A DNA stretch of 32,001 bases from Marinitenerispora sediminis (lineage in GTDB: Bacteria; Actinomycetota; Actinomycetes; Streptosporangiales; Streptosporangiaceae): contig NZ_QEIO01000058.1 in NCBI RefSeq assembly GCF_003336425.1, forward strand, positions 1-32,001, in the 5' to 3' direction. Numbering within the stretch: position 1 is the first letter of the stretch; each line of letters opens with the position of its first letter. The position numbers and the translations under genes are program-made. Below, one piece after another: positions 8,009 through 32,001 of the stretch. The notes beneath the pieces were generated by a model, which worked only from the letters and a program-made list of their open reading frames with translations, was not told the DNA's origin and did not search any database.

Positions 8009-8237
8009 TCTCCTGAGAGGATGGGCGTCGGTGTCTGCCGTTGGCGGTGCCATCCTCCCCCTCTGTCATCGGAGCCTGAGAGCTTCACCACAGGGTGGCT
8101 TGCACCTTCGGCGAGGGGCCGCGGCCCCTGCTTTCCAGAGTGGTCTCGCCCGCGCGGTCCGGTGCGCCTGAGAGGTTCTGTGGGGAGGACTTGCTCCTTC
8201 GGCGGCCCGTGCTGGCTGCGCGGACACTCTCCCGTGC
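8009..8237 (-). promoter_or_regulatory. Tandem glycine riboswitch (gcvT leader)
   Basis: Two glycine aptamers lie in series on the minus strand. The first (about 8237-8160) has GGGAGAGTGTCC, GCCGAAGGAGCAA and CCTCTCAGGC. The second (about 8158-8050) has GACCACTCTGGAAAGC, GCCGAAGGTGCAA and GCTCTCAGGCTCCGATGACA. These are the conserved blocks of the gcvT motif. After aptamer II, GAGGATGG (8057-8050) can pair with CCATCCTC (8024-8017), a hairpin that ends 3 nt before the gcvT ribosome site AGGAGA (8014-8009). No U-rich terminator follows, so control of translation seems likely, but the switching partner cannot be proved by eye. Glycine is expected to turn the operon on. Confidence 0.95.
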
Positions 8238-16747: not shown

Positions 16748-17656
16748 ATGGGGGCCTTGACCCGGTCCCGGGCCGGCCGCCCGGCGCGGGACCTCGAGTA
16801 CGCGGTGATCGACGTGGAGACGACCGGCCTGGACCCGGTCGGCGGTGCCCGCGTCTGCGAGGTGGCGGTGCTGCGGATGCGCGGCGACGGCACGGTGCTC
16901 CGCGAGTTCACCACACTGCTCGACCCCCGGGGACCGGTCACCGGTCAGGAGTTCCACGGCATCGGTTCCGGTGACGTGGTGGGGGCGCCGAGCGCGGCCG
17001 ATATCGCCGACGAGCTCGCCCGGCTGTGCGCCGGCGCGGTGGTCGTGGGCCACAAACTCGACTTCGAGGAGGGCTTCCTCGCCGCCGAGTTCGGCGCGTG
17101 GCTGCCCGACGGCATGCCCGGCCTGTGCACGCTGCGCGCGCTGCGCTCGCAACTCGACCTGGAGCGCTACTCGCTGCCCTGGGCCAGCCACACGCTGAAC
17201 GGGCACTGGCCCACCGGCCAGCACACCGCGCTCGGCGACGCACGGGCCTGCGCCCAGCTGCTGGCGGAACTGCTGCACAACGCCCCGGGGGAGCTCCGCT
17301 ACACGGGGCCCGCGCCGCTCGCGCCGCCGCCCGCGCCCCTGCCGGAGGCCGCCTCCCGGCCGCGGCTCAAACCGCGCCGCCGGGTCGACGGCCTGACCGC
17401 CCGGCTGCCCAACGGGGGCATCCGCTCGACTCCGGCGCATCCGCTCCGGCCGTGGCCGGCGTGCTGGCGGCCCGACGAACTCGACGCCGCCAGGTGCGGG
17501 GGGCGCTTCGATCCCGAGCAGCGGGCGGCCGCCGCCGCGGCGGCCGCGCGGCGCCGCCGCCGCAGGGAGGCGGCGGGGGCAGCCGTGGCGCTGACCGGGG
17601 CGGCGGCCACGGCCGCCGCCGTGGCCGCGGTCCGCCGCCGGCTGCGCGGTCGCTGA
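16748..17656 (+). CDS. DEDDh 3'-5' exonuclease with a C-terminal extension
   Basis: A 302-residue protein whose first 180 residues are a DnaQ-like exonuclease. ExoI is VIDVETTGLDP (Asp22, Glu24), and ExoIII is HTALGDARACAQLL (general-base His and metal Asp). ExoII reads GHKLDFEEGFL (101-111), where the usual HN-x-FD has Lys for Asn and Glu107 for the catalytic Asp, so activity may be altered. Residues 185-302 are a Pro/Arg-rich linker (with CWRPDELDAARCGG) and an Ala/Arg-rich tail. The role is probably DNA or RNA trimming or repair rather than polymerase proofreading. ATG 16748 has GGTGGGG about 7 bp upstream. GTG 16709 is an alternative start. A terminator stem begins inside the last codons. 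Confidence 0.8.
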   Translation: MGALTRSRAGRPARDLEYAVIDVETTGLDPVGGARVCEVAVLRMRGDGTVLREFTTLLDPRGPVTGQEFHGIGSGDVVGAPSAADIADELARLCAGAVVVGHKLDFEEGFLAAEFGAWLPDGMPGLCTLRALRSQLDLERYSLPWASHTLNGHWPTGQHTALGDARACAQLLAELLHNAPGELRYTGPAPLAPPPAPLPEAASRPRLKPRRRVDGLTARLPNGGIRSTPAHPLRPWPACWRPDELDAARCGGRFDPEQRAAAAAAAARRRRRREAAGAAVALTGAAATAAAVAAVRRRLRGR

Positions 17657-17676
17657 GCCGGCGGCGGACCGCGGCC
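17623..17676. terminator. 20-bp hairpin straddling the exonuclease stop codon
   Basis: The arms 17623-17642 and 17657-17676 are perfectly complementary over 20 bp. The 14-nt loop (17643-17656) ends with the TGA stop codon, so the left arm lies inside the coding sequence and encodes part of the Arg-rich C-terminus. It lies between convergent genes and can serve both strands. Confidence 0.8.
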
Positions 17677-28298: not shown

Positions 28299-28330
28299 CC
28301 GGTCCCGGCCGCCGCGGCGGCCGGGACCGG
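28299..28330. terminator. Bidirectional terminator between convergent genes
   Basis: A perfect 32-bp palindrome (two 16-bp arms, no spacer) lies 12 bp after the 27411-gene stop and 11 bp after the agl permease stop. It can serve both converging transcripts. Confidence 0.85.
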
Positions 28331-30333: not shown

Positions 30334-31680
30334 TCAGGAGGAGGGCCAGGAATCCTCGATGTAGGTCAGCGTCTCTTCGGTGCTGTCGCCGTTGATCCAG
30401 TTGACCATCCCGCGCCAGAACGTTCCGGCGCCGACGGCCGCCGGCATGATGTCGGCGCCGTCGAACCGGAAGACGGCGTCGGGGTCGCGCAGCACCTCGG
30501 CGCCGAGGCGGTCGGTGGGCGCCTGGAGGGTGTCGAGGTCGAGGTCCTGGTGGGCGGAGATCCAGGCGCCCTCGGAGGCGCGGCTGTCGGCGAAGCCGGC
30601 GGTGGCCAGGTACTCCTGGAACGCGACGACCTCGGGACGGTCGGAGAAGGCGCCGACGAACTCGCCGCCGCCGAGCACCGGCGTGCCGATCTCGGGGTCG
30701 ATGGGCGGCATGTTGAAGGCGAAGACGTCACCGTCCTCGCCGACCTCGGTGCCCTCCGGCCAGTTCGCGGCGTAGAACGACCCCATCATGTGCATGGCGC
30801 ACTGGTTCTCCAGGATGGGCAGACCGGCCTCCTGGAAGGCGGTCGTGGCGATGCTCTGCACGTCGCCGTAGCCGCCGTTGACGTAGTCGGGGTTGCGCAG
30901 GATGGTGTCCACCCGGTCGAGGGCGTCGACCACGGCCTCGTCGTCGAACGGGATCTCGTGGCTGACCCACTGGTCGTAGACGTCCGGCCCGTTCTCGCGG
31001 AGCATGACGTTCTCCACCCAGTCGGTGGCCGGCCACCCCGTGGCGTCGCCGGACTCGATGCCGGCGCACCACGGCTTGTCGCCCGCCTCGACGATGGCGT
31101 CGCTGAGCTCGATCATGTCGTCCCACGTCTCGGGGACCTCGTAGCCGTTGTCGGCGAAGTAGCTCGGCGAGTACCAGACGAAGGACTTGACGTTGGCACC
31201 GAGCGGGACGCCGTACATCTCGCCGTCCACGGTGGTGTAGTTCAGCCAGTCCTCGCTGAAGCCGGCCTCGGCCTGCTCACGCACCGGGTCGGGCAGCGGC
31301 AGGAGATCGCCGGCGCTGGCGAAGCGCTCCAGCAGCCCGGGCTGGGGGAAGAAGGCGAGGTCGGGGGCGTTGCCGCCGTCGACCATCACCTGGATCTGGG
31401 CCTCGAACTCGCCGGTGCCCTCGTACTGGATGTCGATGCCGGTACAGGAGGCGAAGTCCGCCCACGCGCTTTCGAGGCGGTCAGCCTCCACGTCGCGGAT
31501 GGAGGCGTACACGTTGACGGTTCCGCCCTCGGTGTCCTGCCACTCGCGGAACGGTTCGCAGTCCGCGGAGTCAGGGTCGGCCGCCGTCGAGCCGCCTTCC
31601 AGGTACGAGCAACCTCCGGCGAGGAGCACGAGGGGCAGAGCTGCCGCGAGGGTGAGGCGCCGGGGTGGTAGTAGGGACAT
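30334..31680 (-). CDS. aglE: Alpha-glucoside-type sugar-binding lipoprotein (AglE-like)
   Basis: A 448-residue extracellular binding lipoprotein. The signal peptide ends in the lipobox LAGGC, with lipidated Cys24. The mature domain resembles AglE: DIQYEGTGEFEAQIQVMVDGGNAPDLAFFPQPGLLERFA, YGVPLGANVKSFVWYSP and GAGTFWRGMVNWING. Substrates of the family are trehalose, maltose, sucrose and similar alpha-glucosides. Which one applies here cannot be read. ATG 31680 has a near-perfect AGGAGGT 7 bp upstream, consistent with high expression. It is the first gene of the aglEFG operon, and no hydrolase or LacI regulator is in the window. The name is given with moderate certainty. Confidence 0.85.
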   Translation of the reverse strand: MSLLPPRRLTLAAALPLVLLAGGCSYLEGGSTAADPDSADCEPFREWQDTEGGTVNVYASIRDVEADRLESAWADFASCTGIDIQYEGTGEFEAQIQVMVDGGNAPDLAFFPQPGLLERFASAGDLLPLPDPVREQAEAGFSEDWLNYTTVDGEMYGVPLGANVKSFVWYSPSYFADNGYEVPETWDDMIELSDAIVEAGDKPWCAGIESGDATGWPATDWVENVMLRENGPDVYDQWVSHEIPFDDEAVVDALDRVDTILRNPDYVNGGYGDVQSIATTAFQEAGLPILENQCAMHMMGSFYAANWPEGTEVGEDGDVFAFNMPPIDPEIGTPVLGGGEFVGAFSDRPEVVAFQEYLATAGFADSRASEGAWISAHQDLDLDTLQAPTDRLGAEVLRDPDAVFRFDGADIMPAAVGAGTFWRGMVNWINGDSTEETLTYIEDSWPSS

Positions 31681-31746
31681 GTACTTACCTCCTGGACCGC
31701 CCGGCCGCCGGTCCGGGCCGGGGTTGGTGAGCCCTGATGAAAGCCC

Positions 31747-31756
31747 TTTCTAGAAA
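31747..31756 (-). promoter_or_regulatory. Palindrome in the aglE leader
   Basis: TTTCTAGAAA is a perfect 10-bp palindrome about 40 nt downstream of the predicted aglE transcription start, in an unusually AT-rich stretch. It is short for an operator but could be a LacI-type half-site pair. Confidence 0.3.
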
Positions 31757-31793
31757 TTTTGTCCACTTTTTGCAGTGACTTTCGCCATAACGG

Positions 31794-31828
31794 TTGTGTT
31801 ACATAATGCGGCCTTGTGTTACATGCAA
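31794..31828 (-). promoter_or_regulatory. aglE promoter with two 20-bp-spaced direct repeats
   Basis: On the minus strand TTGCAT (31828-31823) and TATGTA (31805-31800) are 17 bp apart and make a good -35/-10 pair, with a leader of about 113 nt. The sequence ATGTAACACAA occurs twice (31824-31814 and 31804-31794), exactly 20 bp apart. One copy covers the -35 edge and spacer, the other the -10 and start site. This placement suggests a dimeric or tandem-binding repressor responding to sugar. The regulator is not in the window. Confidence 0.6.
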
Positions 31829-31943
31829 GATGCTTCGCGTTTCTTGTCCGTTATGTCGCATCGGCTGACGTGTGTTGAACACGCTGTGTGGTCCCGCGGC
31901 TGCGATGCGGGGGGTGGGCCGGCGGCGTTGCGCTGGCGGAGTA

Positions 31944-32001
31944 GGGAATGGGACGTATCCGCCGTTCCGGCGCGCCGGAACGGCGGATACGTCCCATTCC
32001 C
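31944..32001. repeat. Perfect palindrome of at least 58 bp at the window end
   Basis: Bases 31944-31972 and 31973-32001 are exact reverse complements (29 bp each) with no spacer. The centre is CCGGCGCGCCGG and the outer ends are GGGAATGGGACG and CGTCCCATTCCC. The window stops exactly where the visible match stops, so the repeat may extend further. It lies about 115 bp upstream of the aglE -35. It may be a bidirectional terminator for a gene beyond the edge, like the shorter loop-less palindromes elsewhere in this window. An assembly artefact at a contig end cannot be excluded. Confidence 0.85.

Follow-up and report, generated by a model that had tools for sequence, protein, structure and literature searches.

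The sequence considered here, a complete contig of Marinitenerispora sediminis (C395, 32,001 bases in a draft genome of 6,010,989 bases and 441 contigs, referred to below in its full length as the window), ends in a long perfect palindrome, and this raises the question of whether the palindrome is a real element of the genome or a product of the way in which the sequence was obtained. The last 58 bases of the window (31944-32001) consist of two arms of 29 nt each, 31944-31972 and 31973-32001, which are 100% complementary and 0 nt apart. This confirms the spacerless structure described in the original prediction, and with about 4e-11 loop-less palindromes with arms of at least 29 nt expected in the window from its base composition, it is far beyond chance. 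The RNA fold of 31931-32001 has a predicted energy of -59.4 kcal/mol (z -9.2 against 200 shuffles). As had been claimed, no other exact inverted repeat found in the window is as long; the runner-up among exact arms of at least 19 nt, at 17623-17676, has 21 pairs around a 12-nt loop. Another loop-less inverted repeat, with arms of 16 nt, lies at 28299-28330. The G+C content of the palindrome arm is 0.69, an excess of +0.09 over its flank, and a search of all 441 contigs, allowing up to 3 mismatches, found no second copy of the arm. The right edge had been treated as an arbitrary cut from which the sequence could be extended past 32001. This was mistaken, as 32001 is the last base of the contig and the outer arm of the palindrome ends exactly there.

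The ends of other contigs in the same assembly provide the most informative comparison. Stretches from 120 of the 440 other contigs, together with the window, gave 224 contig ends, of which 188 were usable after 36 ends belonging to 18 small contigs and reading N were dropped. A terminal inverted repeat, defined as an exact repeat starting at the terminal base with an arm of at least 14 nt and its partner no more than about 400 nt away, occurs at 20 of the 188 ends (the window end counted) as against 37 of 100,000 random internal positions. Arms of at least 19 nt occur at five of these random positions, arms of at least 23 nt at one and arms of at least 29 nt at none. A repeat one base inside the start of L293 and another close to the contig end in L038 were left out of the count. 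The terminal arms are 14-79 nt long, showing that the arms of hundreds of bases previously demanded of an artefact were too strict a requirement, and the gaps between them range from 0 to 256 nt (median 21.5). Two of the 20 terminal repeats are loop-less, at the window end and at one end of L044 (arm 14 nt), and the remaining 18 have gaps of 4-256 nt. The four longest arms measure 77, 77, 78 and 79 nt, which may be the mark of an assembler word length near 77: a fold-back path that had copied about 77 nt would meet its own reverse complement, and the assembler would stop. The 19 further repeat-bearing ends (arms 14-79 nt) lie in L034, L040, L044 (both ends), L052, L058, L166, L189, L194, L205, L275, L279, L287, L291, L296, L297, L301, L304 and L305, and genes predicted at these sites may have false termini.

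At one of these ends, the repeat can be judged against a conserved protein. The terminal repeat of contig C45 (L275; arm 77 nt, gap 256 nt) lies within the reading frame of an AMP-binding enzyme, a conserved acyl-CoA ligase, and the last 25 residues of the predicted protein are an antisense copy of the inner arm. The fold falls after query residue 123, inside a domain. The alignment of the closest homologue extends to residue 121-123, and in all 14 of the 14 homologous loci looked at the frame continues for at least 46 residues beyond the aligned part. However, some distant homologues align to residue 139 and the Pfam family AMP-binding_C matches weakly through the fold (197-249), and the boundary therefore depends chiefly on the closest homologue, together with the continuation of the frame elsewhere. 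Judged from these alignments, the C45 end is very probably false sequence, and a conserved ligase that is folded back inside a domain implies that terminal repeats in this assembly can be false. At the ends of C202 and C389, within what we take to be a DUF58 protein and a ribulokinase, respectively, homology also stops at or near the fold, although these cases are weaker as natural protein ends lie close by. Terminal inverted repeats mark about one in ten of the contig ends sampled from this draft, and at least one of these repeats is very probably false, so neither genes nor hairpins called at such ends should be trusted.

The genomic setting of the palindrome was reconstructed from related genomes. 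The gene nearest to it, at 30334-31680 on the minus strand, encodes a solute-binding protein of a sugar-type ABC transporter (Pfam SBP_bac_1 / SBP_bac_8) and reads away from the palindrome, from which it is separated by a non-coding spacer (31681-31943) preceding the transporter operon. A divergent lon protease gene is the first or second gene upstream of the transporter in four relatives, L006, L009, L010 and L077, and its identity was checked with Pfam in L006 and L077; other relatives have different genes upstream of the transporter. The lon gene of the organism itself starts at C1:123536, 222 bases from the end of contig C1, and is transcribed away from that end. Compared with the L006 spacer, the C1 tail resembles its lon side (81% over 120 bases), and part of 31681-31943, at the window end, its transporter side (71% over 70 bases). 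Because the two sides of the L006 spacer are matched in this way, the end of C1 is very probably situated opposite that of the window, with a gap between them. This arrangement would place the palindrome between the divergent lon and transporter promoters and gives a probable order for the two contigs. The C1 tail and the window end share no word of at least 10 bases and no suffix-prefix overlap, and C1 ends without reaching the palindrome arm, which is absent from that contig. In the lon-transporter spacers of L006, L009 and L010 (239, 251 and 470 bp), loop-less palindromes occur with arms of at most 6 nt; none of the relatives compared is of the same genus as the window organism.

These observations point to the palindrome at 31944-32001 being, more probably than not, a contig-end fold-back artefact, presumably of the same origin as the other terminal repeats. 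An artefact is favoured because the palindrome is flush with the contig end, where the assembly is greatly enriched in terminal inverted repeats, and because one such repeat, that of C45, breaks a conserved gene inside a domain. An arm flush with the last base is the automatic outcome of a fold-back. The inner arm (31944-31972, plus strand) is accordingly taken as genuine, whereas the outer arm (31973-32001, plus strand) would be its false reverse-complement copy, as suggested by the other contig ends of the assembly. A strand end near 31972 would pair with itself or with a second identical molecule over a short natural palindrome, possibly the GGCGCGCC core at 31969-31976 or a slightly longer sequence. 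Fill-in, presumably during library preparation, would copy the inner arm as its reverse complement, and the resulting chimeric read would become the tip of an assembly path in a C1-C395 gap that is likely to have been thinly covered. In the PDSM model of PMC10908179, which addresses chimeric artefact reads arising from DNA fragmentation and end repair, natural inverted repeats or palindromes are proposed to let partly single-stranded ends of fragments pair, and fill-in then results in a read that runs into its own reverse complement. These artefact reads resemble 31944-32001 in that sequence is joined to its own reverse complement and, in the model, seeded on short natural repeats or palindromes, but they come from human tumour libraries and concern false variant calls, whereas here only a trace is seen in a bacterial contig after assembly. 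Two further papers, PMC13141652 and PMC13265396, also deal with inverted chimeric or palindromic reads. A false inverted join had been listed among several options for this site, and it is the best supported of them, through the other contig ends, and probable for 31944-32001 itself.

The strongest alternative, possible but doubtful, is that the lon-transporter spacer contains a genuine perfect palindrome, 58 bp or more in length, and that sequencing and assembly broke at its hairpin. Its very stable fold is consistent with this, as is the existence of loop-less palindromes elsewhere in the genome. In 1.73 Mb, 26 internal exact inverted repeats with arms of at least 19 nt were found, seven of them loop-less and crossed by the assembly (arms of 31, 29, 27, 23, 20, 19 and 19 nt). 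The three longest of the 26 are all loop-less: a palindrome of 62 bp at L068:2258-2319, which lies between predicted divergent genes and so provides a natural precedent for the setting, one of 58 bp at L281:10039-10096 and one of 54 bp at L180:1981-2034. These three share with 31944-32001 the absence of a loop, a length of 54-62 bp and a position that is not just after a predicted stop, but differ from it in being assembled through, with unique sequence on both sides. The proposal that natural palindromes in this genome sit at gene ends, which would have argued for an artefact, was dropped for this reason, as the three longest internal ones do not, and the artefact is rated somewhat less probable as a result. 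The zero loop fits the internal class (7 of 26) better than the terminal class (2 of 20), although it is not strictly disqualifying for a fold-back, as no loop is required when two molecules pair over a palindrome. Similarly, the arm G+C excess of +0.09 is nearer to the internal median (+0.105) than to the terminal one (+0.025), although the absolute value of 0.69 is low by the standard of the internal class (median 0.85).

Against a real palindrome stands its position flush with a contig end, in an assembly whose ends are often repeats. Moreover, since the mid-contig palindromes of 62 and 58 bp were crossed, a palindrome of 58 bp need not break this assembly. The absence of the arm from the facing contig C1 also favours the artefact, because a break in a real palindrome would leave arm sequence on both sides, unless the gap is wider, and nothing similar is present in the spacers of the three relatives, none of which is of the same genus. 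Were the palindrome real, it might separate the lon and sugar-transporter promoters as one of a set that has persisted although such sequences are usually unstable, and may act as a cruciform or an insulator, a proposal that we regard as slightly more doubtful again than the existence of the palindrome. Together with its long mid-contig counterparts, it would then pose a small question on unusual palindromes in one actinobacterium.

It is very improbable that the palindrome is an intrinsic, possibly bidirectional, terminator of a small gene hidden in the gap upstream of lon. Inverted repeats of this genome are often found behind genes: by crude gene calls, a predicted stop lies at most 60 nt before 15 of the 26 internal repeats compared with 203 of 5000 random positions, and most of the 26 look like terminators. 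There would also be room for an extra gene, since, leaving out the palindrome, the organism's own lon-transporter spacer still measures at least 485 bp (222 + 263) compared with 239 bp in L006, and in L077 lon and the transporter are separated by a further predicted gene. However, no gene end is seen on either side of the palindrome. The gene at 30334-31680 (minus strand) starts on the palindrome side and the putative neighbour lon likewise, reading away from it, which disfavours the strong terminator suggested previously. The site has a G+C-rich stem, but no T run on the readable side, the other side being beyond the contig, and no terminator-like call was made at the site.

Hairpins with no loop or a short loop do occur close after predicted stops in this genome, including those at 28299-28330 and 17623-17676 in the window, L072:13726-13771, L061:4190-4227 and others, and these are probably terminators without a U-tract. 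The hairpins at L072:13726-13771, L061:4190-4227 and 28299-28330 resemble 31944-32001 in their perfect arms and absent or short loop. Such post-stop hairpins lie mid-contig and near predicted stops, whereas 31944-32001 runs to the last base of a contig, is placed in a divergent promoter region and has a lower arm G+C.

The remaining options, a protein-binding, recombination or replication-associated site, drew no positive evidence, with a single copy of the palindrome in the genome and nothing at its position in the three relatives' lon-transporter spacers or among the listed matches in 297 family genomes, none of the relatives searched being of the same genus. In that search, 31681-32001 matched 33 of the 297 genomes including its own, and the listed matches of the others cover query positions 1-56 or 210-265 only, the palindrome beginning at query position 264. 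With 31300-32001 as the query against 60 genomes, 21 matched including its own, and among the matches listed those of the others stop at query position 444, before the palindrome. Viral contigs gave no exact match to the palindrome arm, and plasmids and phages no near match to 31801-32001. In loci taken from other genomes, 819,423 bases in all, one loop-less palindrome with arms of at least 16 nt was found; these loci are gene-centred and partly from distant phyla and so give no fair comparison.

Two other elements were observed in the course of the analysis. No tRNA was found, and Rfam gave one match in the window, away from the palindrome; this match is a glycine riboswitch aptamer (RF00504, 59.4 bits) at 8053-8148 on the minus strand. 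On the opposite side of the gap, the start of lon in L183 (the C1 tail, G000:C1) is preceded by an inverted repeat of the form TTGAGT...GCTCAA, with a similar one in L006, which is reminiscent of the HAIR sites of the HspR type.
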